A DNA stretch of 64,000 bases from Bolinopsis microptera (Eukaryota; Ctenophora; Tentaculata; Lobata; Bolinopsidae), in the NCBI RefSeq assembly GCF_026151205.1, contig NC_087080.1, forward strand, positions 3,265,096 through 3,329,095. The letters run 5' to 3'. Both the position numbers and the translations under genes were made by a program. The notes beneath the pieces are model-generated. The model was not told where the DNA came from, searched no databases, and worked only from the letters and a program-made list of their open reading frames with translations. Below are positions 2,161 to 22,086 of the stretch, one piece after another; the stretch's first letter is position 1, and each line of letters opens with the position of its first letter.

Positions 2161-3844
2161 ATGGAAATCAGAGCAGCGATCTTATCTGTGATATGTCACA
2201 TGATTCTATCAGAATCAGCTGATCCGAAGAAGAAGACGACAGAATACATCGGATGTTACAAACATAATAGCACAACGTTTAGATGGGAGAATACAAGCGT
2301 CGTGATTAATGTTAACTTTACAACAGATGTATATCAGGAATGTCAAAGTAAAGCAAGAGTGCAAGGTTCGTCAAACATTTACACATATTTTATTTTATTT
2401 ACAGATTTATTCGCTTTTTCGTTCAATCATGTGTTTTGATTACCTTAATACAAGCTTACACTCTACAGCTGTGTGATTATCTACAGTAATACCCCAATTT
2501 AGGTGTAAAATCCGCGATAAATCGGGGTTTTAATTGTTTACAATATGTATGTTGATTGTTGAGCCCTATTTGGGGGAAGGAAATGCCCCCCCCCCCCCCC
2601 GGCGCCCTTATTCCTTAAAAACTCATTTTTGGAACATCTCTGCCCGATTAATAAATTTTTAACCTGTTTCAGGACACCATGTAGCTCAGTTTGAGTTCGA
2701 CGAACATCAACAACTATCGATCAGGTGCAAACCTGAAACTAAGATCAACATATATGAAGCTCTGCTCTTCGATCTTACTCCTGAATGCTTTGGTAGGTTA
2801 ATAAACATATTTATATTTTATATGTTTATAAAGAGTGTTACCGAGTTACGATTTCCTGTGCGTAACATCTTTTTAGTGTGCAGGTCTTCATTATCTTTCT
2901 CTAAAACTAGAATTATACTCCAATCTGATTTAATTATCAATTCAGGTAAAGAAATTGAAAACGTTACAACGTCAATTTACAACATGTGTTCCGCTGCGGA
3001 ACAGTGTCAAATATACGACCTTATAGAAGCAGACTACAATGTTGCAGATGGCTGTTACTACGAAAGGCTGAATATTACTTTTGGTTGTATGAACGACAGA
3101 TTGATCAAGTTAACTAGATTGACCAGAGGTACTGATGATCTGAATCCTTTTGATATAATATTATTAGCGTGCAGTCCTCTTTTGACGGTGTGTTGTGTAT
3201 GCACATGTTATTATGTTAATAAGGAGGACGAGGAGGACACCAACTCAACAGCTGCAACCAGTGGTACCCACTCATCACCTGCAACCAGTGGCACCTGGAG
3301 CACCTACTCATACCCATTACCTGCAACCAGAGGTACCTACTCATCACCTGCAACCGGTGGTACCCACTCATCACCTGCAACCGGTGGTACCCACTCATCA
3401 CCTGCAACCGGTGAAACCCACTCATCACCTGCAACCGGTGGTACCCACTCATCACCTGCAACCGGTGGTACCCACTCATCACCTGCAACCGGTGGTACCC
3501 ACTCATCACCTGCAACCGGTGGTACCCACTCATCACCTGCAACCGGAGGTACTTACCCATCACCTGCAACCAGAGGTACCTATTCATCATCATCAACCGG
3601 AGGTACCCACTCATCACCTGCAACCGGTGGCACCTACCCACCTGCCGCAACCGGTGGAATCTACCCACCACACGGAACCGTTGGAGCTAAGATATCTACC
3701 TTATCTGACCACTCTCCGCCAAGTTACAATGATGTCATTGACCTCCCACGGCTCCCACCGCCAAGTTACAATGATGTCACCACAAGTGGTGGAGGAACTA
3801 CTCTACCAATGACGGCTGGTTTGCAAAAACATCCTCATCAGTAA
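2161..3844 (+). CDS. SUEL-type lectin receptor with coding minisatellite and PPxY tail
   Basis: Three exons: 2161-2365, 2673-2792 and 2946-3844. All junctions are phase 1, giving 407 residues. Residues 1-20 form a plausible signal peptide. From about residue 69 the fragments LSIRCKPETKINIYEA, CSAAEQCQIY and LNITFGC give the cysteine and A-x-Y pattern of the SUEL/galactose-binding lectin fold, which binds sugars outside the cell. NxT sites suggest glycosylation. A hydrophobic, Cys-rich membrane segment spans about residues 177-199 (NPFDIILLAC onward). About 15 copies of a 9-residue GTHSSPATG-type repeat follow, then two PPxY motifs (PPSYNDV twice) near the C-terminus. Inferred role: a cell-surface glycan receptor whose cytoplasmic tail recruits WW-domain proteins. 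The exon 1 donor GTTCGT is weak. A paralogue end lies at 3-242. Ligand unknown. Confidence 0.75.
3241..3670 (+). repeat. 27-bp in-frame minisatellite in receptor tail
   Basis: About 15 units of 27 bp (GGTACCCACTCATCACC...), encoding GTHSSPATG variants. The unit length is a multiple of three, so changes in copy number keep the reading frame. Middle units are nearly identical and edge units diverge, as expected for unequal exchange. The paralogue at 3-242 has far fewer recognisable units. Confidence 0.9.
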
Positions 3845-7160: not shown

Positions 7161-10100
7161 ATGATTAAAAGGAGGGTGACCAGTAGAAACTATGAAGATA
7201 GCAGGACTGAATGTGAAATGAGGCAGATGGAAAGGAAGCACGTGATGCTGTCCTACCAGTGGGATTCTCAGGAAATAGTACTGAGGGTCTACAACAGCTT
7301 AACATCACTAGGGTACCGGGTCTGGATGGATATTATGGGAGGTAAGGGTTTACTATATCAATATCCATAAATTTCACCTCAAAAATAGGTATAAATCAAA
7401 ACGATTTAGTAAGTGAGCCGTACATTAACCGTTTTATGGTTCATTCACTTAAGGTTTTTTATATATAAAAGTAAAACTTCTAAGACGCCACCTGGCAGTA
7501 TTTTGTGTAGGGTATTTTCTACCGCACTTAATTCAGCTGATAACACCTACTTATCTGTGACCATATACATACCACGTTAGATTTGTTTGGAGAGGCGAAT
7601 CATACACAGTTTAACTTTAGGCTCTTAAATTCTTCGAATAAAATATCATCTTTAGAGAACTTCCTCAAATTATTTGTTAAATAGTCGTGTTGAAAGTATT
7701 AAAACACACACACACACCAGGTATAAGCGGAGGTAACATATTCGCCAGCATGGCACTTAACACACACACACCAGGTATAAGCGGAGGTAACATATTCGCC
7801 AGCATGGCACTTAACACACACATACCAGGTATAAGCGGAGGTAACATATTCGCCAGCATGGCACTTAACACACACACACCAGGTATAAGCGGAGGTAACA
7901 TATTCGCCAGCATGGCACTTAACACACACACACCAGGTATAAGCGGAGGTAACATATTCGCCAGCATGGCACTTAACACACACATACCAGGTATAAGCGG
8001 AGGTAACATATTCGCCAGCATGGCACTTAACACACACACACCAGGTATAAGCGGAGGTAACATATTCGCCAGCATGGCACTTAACACACACATACCAGGT
8101 ATAAGCGGAGGTAACATATTCGCCAGCATGGCACTTAACACACACACACCAGGTATAAGCGGAGGTAACATATTCGCCAGCATGGCACTTAACACACATA
8201 CACCAGGTATAAGCGGAGGTAACATATTCGCCAGCATGGCACTTAACACACACATACCAGGTATAAGCGGAGGTAACATATTCGCCAGCATGGCACTTAA
8301 CACACACATACCAGGTATAAGCGGAGGTAACATATTCGCCAGCATGGCACTTAACACACACACATACCAGGTATAAGCGGAGGTAACATATTCGCCAGCA
8401 TGGCACTTAACACACATACACCAGGTATAAGCGGAGGTAACATATTCGCCAGCATGGCACTTAACACACACATACCAGGTATAAGCGGAGGTAACATATT
8501 CGCCAGCATGGCACTTAACACACACATACCAGGTATAAGCGGAGGTAACATATTCGCCAGCATGGCACTTAACACACAGTACACACATACCAGGTATAAG
8601 CGGAGGTAACATATTCGCCAGCATGGCACTTAACACACACACACCAGGTATAAGCGGAGGTAACATATTCGCCAGCATGGCACTTAACACACACACACCA
8701 GGTATAAGCGGAGGTAACATATTCGCCAGCATGGCACTTAACACACACATACCAGGTATAAGCGGAGGTAACATATTCGCCAGCATGGCACTTAACACAC
8801 ACACATACCAGGTATAAGCGGAGGTAACATATTCGCCAGCATGGCACTTAACACACACACATACCAGGTATAAGCGGAGGTAACATATTCGCCAGCATGG
8901 CACTTAACACACACACACCAGGTATAAGCGGAGGTAACATATTCGCCAGCATGGCACTTAACACACACACACCAGGTATAAGCGGAGGTAACATATTCGC
9001 CAGCATGGCACTTAACACACACATACCAGGTATAAGCGGAGGTAACATATTCGCCAGCATGGCACTTAACACAGACATACCAGGTATAAGCGGAGGTAAC
9101 ATATTCGCCAGCATGGCACTTAACACACACACATACCAGGTATAAGCGGAGGTAACATATTCGCCAGCATGGCACTTAACACACACATACCAGGTATAAG
9201 CGGAGGTAACATATTCGCCAGCATGGCACTTAACACACATACACACCAGGTATAAGCGGAGGTAACATATTCGCCAGCATGGCACTTAACACACACACAC
9301 CAGGTATAAGCGGAGGTAACATATTCGCCAGCATGGCACTTAACACACACATACCAGGTATAAGCGGAGGTAACATATTCGCCAGCATGGCACTTAACAC
9401 ACACACACCAGGTATAAGCGGAGGTAACATATTCGCCAGCATGGCACTTAACACACACACACACCAGGTATAAGCGGAGGTAACATATTCGCCAGCATGG
9501 CACTTAACACACACACACACCAGGTATAAGCGGAGGTAACATATTCGCCAGCATGGCACTTAACACACACACACACCAGGTATAAGCGGAGGTAACATAT
9601 TCGCCAGCATGGCACTTAACACACACATACCAGGTATAAGCGGAGGTAACATATTCGCCAGCATGGCACTTAACACACACACACCAGGTATAAGCGGAGG
9701 TAACATATTCGCCAGCATGGCACTTAACACACACACATACCAGGTATAAGCGGAGGTAACATATTCGCCAGCATGGCACTTAACACACACATACCAGGTA
9801 TAAGCGGAGGTAACATATTCGCCAGCATGGCACTTAACACACACACACCAGGTATAAGCGGAGGTAACATATTCGCCAGCATGGCACTTAACACACACAC
9901 ACACACCAGGTATAAGCGGAGGTAACATATTCGCCAGCATGGCACTTAACACACACACACCAGGTATAAGCGGAGGTAACATATTCGCCAGCATGGCACT
10001 TAACACACACATACCAGGTATAAGCGGAGGTAACATATTCGCCAGCATGGCACTTAACACACACACATACCAGGTATAAGCGGAGGTAACATATTCGCCA

Positions 10101-11732
10101 GCATGGCACTTAACACACACATACCAGGTATAAGCGGAGGTAACATATTCGCCAGTATGGCACTTAACACACACACATACCAGGTATAAGCGGAGGTAAC
10201 ATATTCGCCAGCATGGCACTTAACACACACATACCAGGTATAAGCGGAGGTAACATATTCGCCAGTATGGCACTTAACACACACACATACCAGGTATAAG
10301 CGGAGGTAACATATTCGCCAGCATGGCACTTAACACACACACACACCAGGTATAAGCGGAGGTAACATATTCGCCAGCATGGCACTTAACACACACATAC
10401 CAGGTATAAGCGGAGGTAACATATTCGCCAGTATGGCACTTAACACACACACATACCAGGTATAAGCGGAGGTAACATATTCGCCAGCATTGCACTTAAC
10501 ACACACATACCAGGTATAAGCGGAGGTAACATATTCGCCAGCATGGCACTTAACACACACACACCAGGTATAAGCGGAGGTAACATATTCGCCAGCATGG
10601 CACTTAACACACACACATACCAGGTATAAGCGGAGGTAACATATTCGCCAGCATGGCACTTAACACACACACACCAGGTATAAGCGGAGGTAACATATTC
10701 GCCAGCATGGCACAGAGCATCGAGAAGAGCAGTGCTCTAGTGTGCTTCATGACTGAGGGCTACGAGAGGTCGTCTAATGGGGAGAAGGAGTTGACGTACG
10801 CGGACAATACGAGTGTCAGGATTATACCGTGTTTGTTGCAGGAGAGAGTGGGGGGAGGAGAACCTTATAAACCGACTGGTATTAAACATATAATAATGAA
10901 TCAAATAATGCAACGCCAACGTTGTGTAATTCTATCACATAATTATGATAATTGTGATTTTGAATCGATCCCAAAGAGTTAAGAGATTAAGTAAAGTTAA
11001 TTTCTTTTGGAAATAAGTAATACCGACTTAGAGATATGACAGAGTTCTTCTTCTCAGGCTGGCTTGGATTTCTTAGATCTAACTTACTGTACGTTGATTT
11101 CACGAAGGCTGAATCAGACGAAGAGGTTTATGATAAAGCAATCGAGGACCTCGTCAAACAGATGAACTTTTACATGGTGCGCTTTCTGTTCCGCAAATTG
11201 CAAATCAAAAACAAACTGTGAAATGAAATTATGGATGATAAGATTTTAAAAATATGACTATTATGAAACTAATTTGTTTTGTGGGTATATTGTTCATAAA
11301 ATTATTGGCCACGATAAGTTTACCAATTTAACCATATTTTTCCAGATAATTCCTAATATAACTGGAACAGAAGCACAAGAAAGGATCTTAAACTCGAGTT
11401 CATCACCTACAGCTGACTTCCAAACAGCTGACTTCCCTACAGCCATCATATCAAACCCACTATTATCCCACTTTACCCAAGAAAGGGATCCAACCTGCAC
11501 AGGACCCATGACAGCGCTGAGACTCAGTATAGAATCCATACCACAGCACATTGTGAGGCAAGTTCGCAGACAATTCAGTCGCTCTAGATCAGGGTCAGAC
11601 AGCGTGTCGTCAAATTCTGCGGGTGGTGGAGGGGAGATAAGGGACCAGTCTGACAGTGGCTCTAGTCTGAGTACTGTGTCTGAACCTAGTTTAGATGAAC
11701 AATATTCTCACCTTGGTAGTGCTCCTCCGTGA
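7161..11732 (+). CDS. TIR-domain protein, four exons
   Basis: Exons 7161-7341, 10678-10878, 11058-11176 and 11346-11732; intron phases 1, 1 and 0 agree at every junction; 295 residues. Residues about 25-175 form a TIR domain: KHVMLSYQWDSQ (strand A), GYRVWMDIMGG (BB loop), MAQSIEKSSALVCFMTEGY, GEKELTYA, RIIPCLL, then GWLG (its first Gly is split by intron 2) and YVDFT. TIR domains assemble signalling scaffolds, and some hydrolyse NAD; the Glu in the GEKEL helix sits where the catalytic Glu of SARM1-type TIRs lies, so enzyme activity is possible but unproven. The tail (about 175-295) is Ser-rich and low in predicted structure. No signal peptide, LRR or Ig domain is visible, so it is probably cytosolic. 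Intron 1 is filled by the minisatellite described separately. Upstream exons cannot be excluded. Confidence 0.8.
7718..10677 (+). repeat. 54-56-bp minisatellite made of the TIR exon 2 splice acceptor
   Basis: There are 54 complete copies before the real exon 2, at 7721 and then every 54 bp (most), 56 bp (about 17), 58 bp (one) or 61 bp (one). Each holds a CA-rich tract, CCAG, and GTATAAGCGGAGG through ATGGCA: the 3' splice site and the first 35 bp of exon 2. After that the copies continue CTTAACACACAC where the exon reads CAGAGCATC. Long open frames on both strands across the array are artefacts of the 54-bp period. Confidence 0.95.
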
Positions 11733-12931: not shown

Positions 12932-13996
12932 ATGAAAGTAAACGACGAGAGTTTTACAAACCTAACTGTATTGGCTGATGCTCTCGGGCTTAGCAGCACT
13001 GAATACTCGATACTCTCAACCTCACTCAGCATATACTTCATCTTAATAATAATTCTTGGTGGAATTGGAAACTCCCTCGTCATCTACGGAGTATGGAAGC
13101 ACAACGCCCTCAAAATGGAGAAGAGAAGTGTTCTAGCCCTACTGAGTGTGGCATTTGCTGACCTTGCATGTGTTGTGGTGTTCTACTTCCCTCGACTTAC
13201 CACTCTTCTGGGTGGGAGGTGGGTTTTAGGAACGAAGTTTTGTTATTCCACACTCATGAGGTGGACTGAGATCCCGTGTGAGCAGAACTTCATAGCACTG
13301 CTGTCCTGTCACAGAGCATATCTTATATGGAAACCACTCCGAGGCGGCATCCCTACCACCGTAATGAGGAACCTCCTTATCCTTATTTGCGTGTATTTCC
13401 CCCTCACGTATACTCTGGAAACTGTGCTGATTGACGGGCCACTGCTCAAGTTTGAGCCATCAATGTTTGATTGCGAGATTGATGTGACGCAGATAAAGAG
13501 CTCTTCAGCTAAATTCATACCATACCGAGGATTTATCCAAACCTTTCTCCCGCTTATCGCTATCATCCTAGCAAACGTCCTAATTCTTGCTTTTATGGGG
13601 AAAGCTGGACACCTTCGACGATTCCGTGCGGTAAAAACTGTATCGATAGTTTGTTGGACATTTCTGGTGAGTTATATTCCCTGTATGGCACTGTGGATAT
13701 TGAAGGGTTTATCAGCAACAAATACCATACCCACACCGAGCAGTCAGGTGTTTATCGGACTGAGGATAGCCACCATCATGTCAATAGCTATCAACATCGT
13801 GGCAAACCCCGTTATTTATTTCTACACCAACGAGAAGTTTGCTTTCTTCATCCGAGAGCTGTTGAGGGGGGATGTGAGGGAGTTTGGGAGGAATTGGCAG
13901 AACCACGTGAATCAGGTTTCGAGTCCAACAACAGGAAACACGACTAACGCAATGCCATTGCAAATAGTTACTTCAATCGTAAGGCTAACTGGCTAA
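12932..13996 (+). CDS. Class A (rhodopsin-like) G-protein-coupled receptor, orphan
   Basis: Single exon, 354 residues. An N-linked site NLT lies at 10-12. Seven hydrophobic segments are visible. Landmarks: GN in TM1 (Asn47), LSVAFADLA with Asp77 in TM2, GGRW in the first outer loop, Cys104 and Cys181 as the likely disulphide, CHRAY at 126-130 in place of DRY, proline in TM5 (PLIA), CW-x-FLVSYIP in TM6, and NPVIY at 292-296 in TM7. The replacement of D by C in the DRY motif is unusual and may change basal activity. The tail of about 45 residues has no palmitoylation cysteine. Class A receptors couple ligand binding at the plasma membrane to G proteins; the ligand cannot be named from sequence. 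The intronless form is common in expanded invertebrate receptor families. Confidence 0.9.
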   Translation: MKVNDESFTNLTVLADALGLSSTEYSILSTSLSIYFILIIILGGIGNSLVIYGVWKHNALKMEKRSVLALLSVAFADLACVVVFYFPRLTTLLGGRWVLGTKFCYSTLMRWTEIPCEQNFIALLSCHRAYLIWKPLRGGIPTTVMRNLLILICVYFPLTYTLETVLIDGPLLKFEPSMFDCEIDVTQIKSSSAKFIPYRGFIQTFLPLIAIILANVLILAFMGKAGHLRRFRAVKTVSIVCWTFLVSYIPCMALWILKGLSATNTIPTPSSQVFIGLRIATIMSIAINIVANPVIYFYTNEKFAFFIRELLRGDVREFGRNWQNHVNQVSSPTTGNTTNAMPLQIVTSIVRLTG

Positions 13997-18591: not shown

Positions 18592-19049
18592 TCCCTCTCC
18601 CTCTCCCTCTCCCTCTCCCTCTCCCTCTCCCTCTCCCTCTCCCTCTCCCTCTCCCTCTCCCTCTCCCTCTCCCTCTCCCTCTCCCTCTCCCTCTCCCTCT
18701 CCCTCTCCCTCTCCCTCTCCCTCTCCCTCTCCCTCTCCCTCTCCCTCTCCCTCTCCCTCTCCCTCTCCCTCTCCCTCTCCCTCTCCCTCTCCCTCTCCCT
18801 CTCCCTCTCCCTCTCCCTCTCCCTCTCCCTCTCCCTCTCCCTCTCCCTCTCCCTCTCCCTCTCCCTCTCCCTCTCCCTCTCCCTCTCCCTCTCCCTCTCC
18901 CTCTCCCTCTCCCTCTCCCTCTCCCTCTCCCTCTCCCTCTCCCTCTCCCTCTCCCTCTCCCTCTCCCTCTCCCTCTCCCTCTCCCTCTCCCTCTCCCTCT
19001 CCCTCTCCCTCTCCCTCTCCCTCTCCCTCTCCCTCTCCCTCTCCCTCTC
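18592..19049 (+). repeat. (CTCCCT)n hexanucleotide array, about 76 copies
   Basis: A nearly perfect run of CTCCCT with all pyrimidines on the + strand and all purines on the - strand for over 450 bp. It is a mirror-symmetric homopurine tract able to form triplex DNA. Frames reading Leu-Pro, Ser-Leu or Arg-Glu across it are not genes. Confidence 0.95.
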
Positions 19050-21604: not shown

Positions 21605-22086
21605 TCCCTCTCCCTCTCCCTCTCCCTCTCCTTCTCCCTCTCCCTCTCCCTCTCCCTCTCCCTCTCCCTCTCCCTCTCCCTCTCCCTCCCCCTCCCCCTC
21701 CCCCTCCCCCTCCCCCTCTCCCTCTCCCTCTCCCTCTCCCTCTCCCTCTCTCTCTCCCTCTCCCTCTCCCTCTCCCTCTCCCTCTCCCTCTCCCTCTCCC
21801 TCTCCCTCTCCCTCTCCCTCTCCCTCTCCCTCTCCCTCTCCCTCTCCCTCTCCCTCTCCCTCTCCCTCTCCCTCTCCCTCTCCCTCTCCCTCTCCCTCTC
21901 CCTCTCCCTCTCCCTCTCCCTCTCCCTCTCCCTCTCCCTCTCCCTCTCCCTCTCCCTCTCCCTCTCCCTCTCCCTCTCCCTCTCCCTCTCCCTCTCCCTC
22001 TCCCTCTCCCTCTCCCTCTCCCTCTCACTCTCCCTCTCCCTCTCCCTCTCCCTCTCCCTCTCCCTCCCCCTCTCCCTCTCCCTCTC
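21605..22086 (+). repeat. (CTCCCT)n hexanucleotide array, second copy, with variants
   Basis: About 80 hexamers, mostly CTCCCT, with a CTCCCC sub-block near 21685-21717 and scattered single changes (CTCTCT, CTCACT). It is more diverged than the first array, so it is either older or less recently homogenised. Confidence 0.95.

Follow-up and report, generated by a model that had tools for sequence, protein, structure and literature searches.

A minisatellite in the first intron of a TIR-domain gene of the ctenophore Bolinopsis microptera repeats the intron's 3′ boundary: a candidate mirage repeat

The TIR gene and its first intron

The DNA analysed here (the window) is a 64,000-nucleotide stretch of the ctenophore Bolinopsis microptera (contig NC_087080.1, positions 3,265,096 to 3,329,095 of the forward strand). 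It carries a gene for a TIR-domain protein, and about nine tenths of the first intron of this gene consists of a minisatellite whose units repeat the boundary between intron 1 and exon 2. The gene model was built by hand from the sequence with inferred exon boundaries. The features are as follows (window positions; a slash marks a splice site).

7161..7341, plus strand: exon 1, from the ATG, with phase-1 donor GGAG/GTAAGG (hand-built model)
7342..10677, plus strand: intron 1, 3336 bp, of which the array makes up about nine tenths (Tandem Repeats Finder [TRF] and hand-built model)
7706..10713, plus strand: minisatellite array, 54 upstream units (CTTAAC, CA tract, CAG / 35 bp from the start of exon 2), continuous with the boundary taken as genuine (TRF and exact-site count)
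10624..10677, plus strand: last upstream unit, no. 54, whose acceptor adds 18 residues in frame (spacing count and hand-built model)
10678..10878, plus strand: exon 2, whose acceptor (no. 55) is presumed genuine; donor ACTG/GTATTA (hand-built model)
10690..10695, plus strand: GTAACA, potential donor 12 nt past the acceptor, in the genuine exon copy; 55 of 55 units have one (sequence)
11058..11176, plus strand: exon 3 (hand-built model)
11346..11732, plus strand: exon 4, ending in TGA; protein of 295 amino acids (hand-built model)

The four exons splice to an intact protein of 295 residues, and the introns other than intron 1 are 169 and 179 nt long. The TIR part of the hand-spliced protein matched Pfam TIR_2 (PF13676) with 66.1 bits (E 5.5e-18; curated cut-off 28), and exon 2 reached 27.4 bits alone and 28 bits with its neighbours in frame. 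The original prediction of a TIR gene at this locus is borne out by this match and the intact model. A search against solved structures gave four weak matches, the best of which (E 0.043) was a CRISPR-associated TIR protein; therefore, we claim no enzyme activity for the protein.

Anatomy of the array

TRF reported the array with a period of 54 bp, 54.9 copies, 96% matches, and a score of 5465, which is far beyond chance. The exact site CAGGTATAAGCGGAGG (CAG/GTATAAG) occurs 55 times in the window, with exon-like starts running from 7721 to 10678, and no exact copy was found on the opposite strand of the window. The 55 acceptors CAG/GTATAAGCGGAGG comprise 54 extra sites and the presumed genuine one at 10678, in line with the earlier claim of a minisatellite holding 54 copies of the acceptor of this gene. 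Their spacings are 54 bp (37 cases), 56 bp (15), 58 bp (one), and 61 bp (one).

Each upstream unit reads GTATAAGCGGAGGTAACATATTCGCCAGCATGGCA, then CTTAAC, a CA tract, and CAG. GTATAAGCGGAGGTAACATATTCGCCAGCATGGCA represents the first 35 bp of exon 2 and is unchanged in 50 of the 54 upstream units, whereas CAG/GT is kept in all 55; the unit composition described beforehand (CA tract, CAG, and 35 bp of exon 2) is thus confirmed. A branch-point-like TTAAC, conforming to the yUnAy form of branch points, lies 5′ of the acceptor in 54 of the 55 units. With CTTAAC, CA tract, and CAG, every unit therefore has what read as the components of a 3′ splice site, but a CA tract replaces the usual pyrimidine-rich one. 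Since the exon-like part is altered in just 4 of 54 units, the intact CAG/GT is weak evidence of constraint. For the 110-bp period given by TRF, unit types showed no excess order at lag 2 (0.21 versus 0.20 after shuffling), and the value at lag 5 was 0.31 (P 0.03; one of eight lags tried). GCCAGCATGG, which is a favourable start context for translation, is contained in 51 of the 55 units.

The unit, together with the remainder of exon 2, served as query for a search of the genome (264.65 Mb, 232 contigs) that skipped simple repeats and scored the best candidates alone. The 80 matches listed all lay at the window locus or in a copy on contig C5 described below.

Reading frame and donors within the units

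When the array is retained in the transcript, one 54-bp unit adds GISGGNIFASMALNTHTP (18 residues), and the other two frames of the unit hold stops (GTA-TAA and AGG-TAA). Both the in-frame addition of 18 residues and the GTA TAA stop in another frame had been predicted, and they hold for the retained array. Under the same condition, full-length protein results from acceptors 54 and 55, i.e., 2 of 55, as had also been proposed. In general, however, the statement that the last two acceptors alone give a complete protein fails, because each unit has two potential donors in the phase of exon 1, AG/GT at 0 nt and GGAG/GTAACA at +12 nt. The same 12-nt piece followed by GTAACA is present in 55 of 55 units, and splicing from a +12 donor straight to exon 2 would yield full-length protein in 54 of 54 paths with four extra residues (GISG). 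Zero to four extra 12-nt pieces all read through, adding four residues each, and when an entire unit serves as an exon, the frame is kept in 37 of 54 cases. On the other hand, if a transcript makes one +12 exit, lands on any later acceptor, and retains the array from there, just 107 of 1485 paths give full-length protein. Since in-phase +12 donors can restore the frame, a tuning of TIR dose does not follow from the frame analysis. The original interpretation therefore stands as to structure, gene, and frames of a retained array, but it had overlooked the in-phase donors inside the units.

Donor scores, calculated with a vertebrate matrix and rough, were 6.47 for exon 1, 1.98 for the +12 donor, 1.92 for exon 3, 0.19 for the unit start, −0.74 for the regenerated zero-nt junction, and −2.08 for exon 2. 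On this rough scale, the in-unit donors would score between or above donors that the gene appears to use. Introns between adjacent units would be 42–54 nt long. Among 2923 AG sites of the window outside the array, GT comes next in 7.0%, and an in-phase AGGT within 35 nt is present as well in 0.31%; this comparison was selected post hoc, and AG/G is in any case favoured at exon junctions.

Authenticity of the array length

A noisy copy of the region on C5 matches the window from about 20,862,114 (window 251) to 20,894,770 (window 28045), i.e., over ca. 33 kb, mostly in order. Just before it, C5:20,860,880 gives a single noisy match that is out of order. The noisy stretch ends abruptly, and different matches with fewer gap openings follow from 20,894,777. 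In six stretches compared with the window, insertions amounted to 9.7–14.9%, deletions to 2.1–3.1%, and substitutions to 4.4–7.8%. We considered this copy as a second array-bearing paralogue and rejected it, because the differences are insertion-rich and alike in exons, intron, array, and flanks, and because the stretch ends abruptly. The most plausible reading is that a long read was placed unpolished on the wrong contig. The B. microptera assembly is reported to derive from PacBio reads with wtdbg and TGS-GapCloser, which agrees with a raw-read patch (PMC10232365). Gene annotations on C5 at about 20862114–20894770 would be false paralogues.

With error rates taken from the flanks of the C5 copy, the likelihood of this molecule peaked at 54 extra units (−3064.7, versus −3168.5 for 53 and −3150.6 for 55), exceeding 55 by 86 and 53 by 104 log units, and each of 20 shuffled orders of the units fitted worse. 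A plainer alignment score, in which positions were sampled in threes, gave the same optimum by a narrow lead (2299 for 54, 2294 for 55, and 2227 for 53). Fuzzy counting of units was discarded as a method, as it found 8 units in the C5 copy, recovered 51 of the 55 units of the clean window, and reported 3 in a flank that has no array. For the C/T variants before CCAG, 41 units match between the C5 copy and the consensus, 8 differ, and 5 are ties. The C5 copy prefers 54 over 56 bp in 36 of the 37 54-bp units and 56 over 54 bp in just 7 of the 15 56-bp units. The frame statements are qualified in that the precise 54/56 order rests on the assembled consensus of the CA runs. Because the C5 read is possibly among those behind the consensus, the test addresses assembly inflation and not variation between animals. 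The array is real; an assembly error inflating it, which had been named as a possible refutation of the original prediction, is argued against by a raw molecule that also prefers 54 extra units.

TIR relatives and boundary repeats elsewhere in the genome

A whole-genome TIR_2 search gave 22 matches; as they were scored exon by exon, they do not equal 22 genes. By hand alignment, an apparent phase-1 intron (216 bp on C10 and 228 bp on C3) interrupts the paralogues on these two contigs at the Gly-Asn position homologous to the +12 site. This position lacks an intron in the C2 paralogue, and in the C11 pair the intron is placed further along. The intron of the window gene is 12 nt upstream of the C10/C3 intron position, and this difference would fit either an intron shift or a separate gain. 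The paralogue stretches on C10, C3, C2, and C11 hold no acceptor array like that of the window.

In the C3 paralogue, the donor boundary of exon 1, GTTTCAG/GTTAGTT, occurs twice in tandem (C3:11257754 and 11257723, minus strand), 31 bp apart with 28 of 31 positions alike, as a small, donor-side counterpart of a mirage repeat. On C1, there are five copies (95% alike) of a 62-bp unit at positions 2907–3214 of the stretch analysed, and an ion-channel coding sequence (minus strand; Ion_trans_2, E 2.5e-9) starts with the final 14 bp of this unit. This could be another boundary repeat at a candidate splice boundary, and boundary repeats may recur in the Bolinopsis genome. Long minisatellites were common in 67.9 kb of overlapping TIR-like loci (30 bp × 48, 30 bp × 38, and 21 bp × 42) and in 54.9 kb of C5 (68 bp × 41.5), a background drawn from these loci and this C5 stretch rather than from random samples.

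Ctenophores have been reported to have TIR2 (PF13676) without PF01582 (PMC11797021). PF01582 gave two weak partial matches in the genome, both on C5 (28.9 bits each; cut-off 21.3), with a TGA inside each, and both overlap better TIR_2 matches (47.4 bits); the agreement with the reported absence appears only rough. Two TIR_2 matches of identical score at C5:6941956 and C5:6875273, ca. 67 kb apart and also with weak PF01582 matches, may represent a recent duplication or a duplication in the assembly.

Among other features of the window, a rhodopsin-family receptor in one open frame (7tm_1, E 6e-14) lies just downstream of the TIR gene at 12932–13996 on the plus strand, and a long (TCCCTC)n array occurs twice, with 76 copies at 18592–19049 and 80 at 21605–22086.

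Comparison with mirage minisatellites and other known systems

Mirage minisatellites are described as tandem copies of intron–exon boundaries in lancelet genes that reportedly leave splicing undisturbed (PMC3087553, PMC3902484). In amphioxus, they are reported from Adh3, troponin C, and the globins BflGb6 and BflGb9, and PGBD5 repeats have been compared with them; those of Adh and troponin C are said to yield no aberrant mRNAs (PMC3902484). The BflGb6 repeat consists of the 3′ end of an intron and the 5′ part of exon 2, with haplotypes of 6 and 3 units, and reverse transcription PCR suggested normal splicing, although its authors state that the signals are usable and could create new introns (PMC3087553). 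Reported unit sizes are 10–160 bp (PMC3087553).

The TIR array resembles these mirages in its tandem boundary copies, which span the boundary in our inferred model, in its unit length of 54–61 bp within the reported range, and in AG/GT kept in 55 of 55 units, as it is in many lancelet units. As in BflGb6, precisely the intron 3′ end and the exon 2 5′ part are repeated. Unlike BflGb6, with 3 and 6 units of 150–160 bp and 81–100% identity, it has 55 units of mostly 54 bp with 96% matches. It further differs from the lancelet mirages in residing in a ctenophore TIR gene and in retaining the acceptor and an in-phase +12 GT in every unit. As to the length instability of mirages, the consensus and the one raw molecule, which make up our sample, both have 54 extra units. 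The element looks like a long case of a kind already known from lancelets. In the literature on acceptor-bearing minisatellites, we found no ctenophore case by title or start of the abstract, most subscription papers being outside the coverage.

In the potato RdRp gene, a two-copy boundary duplication reportedly made a spliced intron with its donor in a small, formerly exonic piece (PMC4974935). As there, the first intron/second exon boundary is duplicated here, so that acceptor, branch site, and tract are inherited and a potential donor lies in the exonic piece; the potato case, however, involves two copies and an intron proven by RNA, whereas the 55 copies here are known from DNA. The duplicated unit thus has an acceptor and an exon start with a latent donor, as in introns gained by boundary duplication.

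Like the ratchet points of Drosophila, the units juxtapose AG/GT, and the donor could be regenerated after a first splice; unlike them, they have a CA tract and a weak regenerated donor and stand 55 in tandem in a short intron (PMC8605326). The ratchet donor has been described as stronger than the downstream cryptic-exon donor (PMC8605326). By the vertebrate matrix the order is reversed in the array (−0.74 for the zero-nt junction versus 1.98 for the +12 donor).

In human 6-16/IFI6, a minisatellite is said to supply splice donors (Turri, 1995). The variable number tandem repeat (VNTR) in intron 18 of human ABCA7 likewise has units with splice signals beside an exon (PMC5954066). Both differ from the TIR array in that donors are repeated (in 25-bp units in ABCA7) instead of acceptors. 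The W repeats of Epstein-Barr virus are in general large viral repeats with whole exons and real donors, unlike the boundary alone in an animal intron. They resemble the array in having tandem units with alternative acceptors, and the viral transcripts are reported to vary in repeat number (PMC12451641).

Interpretation of the array

We consider it likely, though well short of certain, that the array is a mirage minisatellite that is tolerated and mainly spliced at the last acceptor. A tandem duplication over the intron 1/exon 2 boundary would have grown to 55 units, in an order of events that we infer. The last acceptor is probably used in most transcripts because it alone leads into an exon of 201 nt that has a donor of its own. 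If the array is entered early, the transcript would meet in-frame stops and be lost, or would be spliced again from the in-phase AG/GT donors, which would leave the array tolerated rather than selected, its length presumably changing as in other minisatellites. Since 17 of the 54 spacings differ from 54 bp, there is no sign of selection for an in-frame array. This interpretation is supported by the near-identical array structure, the intact TIR_2 gene, and the fact that the unit was listed at no other place but the C5 copy in a search that skipped simple repeats and scored the best candidates. The boundary repeat on C3, the candidate one on C1, and the long minisatellites elsewhere in the genome point in the same direction, as do the lancelet mirages, whose anatomy the array appears to share and whose splicing is reportedly undisturbed (PMC3087553, PMC3902484).

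Several points weigh against it. Use of the last acceptor is predicted from sequence alone, the 55 acceptors are locally near equal, and first-come-first-served splicing would favour early ones. The lancelet globin case has just 3 and 6 units, and tolerance of 55 is thus an extrapolation; moreover, its authors allow that alternative transcripts and new introns could arise from the copied signals (PMC3087553).

Alternatively, an early unit might be joined first, and its regenerated or +12 donor then used stepwise until exon 2 is reached (recursive splicing); each +12 step would add GISG to the TIR domain where the original prediction placed the BB loop. AG/GT and the 12-nt piece with GTAACA in 55 of 55 units, the open frame with 0 to 4 pieces, and the rarity of AG, GT, and in-phase AGGT together elsewhere in the window (0.31% of 2923 AG sites, post hoc) are in favour of this, as are the apparent introns of two paralogues at the +12-site homologue and, by the vertebrate matrix, a +12 donor (1.98) similar to that of exon 3 (1.92) and better than that of exon 2 (−2.08). 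In potato, a boundary duplication did produce a spliced intron (PMC4974935). However, the regenerated zero-nt donor is weak (−0.74 versus 6.47 for exon 1) and scores below the +12 donor, contrary to the order given for ratchet points (PMC8605326). Additionally, introns between adjacent units would be just 42–54 nt against 169 and 179 nt for the others of the gene, one +12 exit followed by a retained array gives full-length protein in 107 of 1485 paths, and no ladder is needed for an intron of just 3.3 kb. We regard stepwise splicing as unlikely. Its frame-safe form, in which any of the 55 units is entered and left 12 nt later and a variable number of GISG is added in the BB-loop region, seems improbable.

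Rather unlikely, too, is the dosage model, in which competition among the 55 acceptors shunts transcripts into truncated forms, and the level of functional TIR protein is set by copy number. The 2 of 55 acceptors that give full-length protein from a retained array speak for it, and in human ABCA7 the length of the intronic VNTR is reported to correlate with exon 19 skipping and lower expression, although retention of the repeat units itself was unchanged with VNTR size (PMC5954066). Against it, in-unit donors can rescue the frame, the model is a prediction from a single genome, and lancelet mirages reportedly leave splicing undisturbed (PMC3087553, PMC3902484).

It is also conceivable, with very low probability, that the acceptors serve as a landing zone for a spliced leader, and that a shortened mRNA starting in the array is translated from the ATG of exon 2. 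In another ctenophore, 56% of Iso-Seq reads are reported to carry leaders, and the 44-nt leader pattern that we used comes from Hormiphora californensis (PMC8527503). Matches to this pattern cluster on C13 at 12.79–12.89 Mb. Seven stretches of the cluster aligned to the leader with scores of 23–33, and an eighth elsewhere on C13 with 17, whereas the best score of 1000 random stretches of the window was 16; the eight had been chosen because they matched the pattern. Genome-wide counts with at most three mismatches were near control (104 forward and 64 reverse versus 67 and 85), and the leader evidence therefore consists of the cluster and the exact match. The presence of GCCAGCATGG, a favourable start context, in 51 of 55 units would fit this model, while the strong exon 1 donor upstream would favour cis splicing. 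Most of the C13 leader-like genes have a GGTAA-type donor. Numerous small indels distinguish the copies, and this part of C13 may be unpolished as well. Three-mismatch leader matches recur about every 513 bp at C8:7889749–7895420, which looks like a tandem array of ca. 0.5-kb units.

That the array length is an assembly artefact is hardly credible: tandem arrays are often mis-sized in assemblies and the present assembly appears to include a raw-read patch, but the uncorrected C5 molecule peaks at 54 extra units in likelihood and, narrowly, in the plainer score, and 20 of 20 shuffled orders fit it worse, with the caveat that the read may be among those behind the consensus.

If the array is a tolerated mirage minisatellite, mirage repeats are not a peculiarity of lancelets but also occur in ctenophores, at a copy number far above that of the globin cases. 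If stepwise splicing were true instead, repeat expansion would be a route to length variants of an immune protein with the frame kept. The locus presents a natural competition of splice sites, in which 55 near-equal acceptors share an intron and just the last leads to a real exon. Such a competition would bear on the roles of position, transcription order, and exon context in the choice of acceptors, and on the seeding of new introns by arrays.

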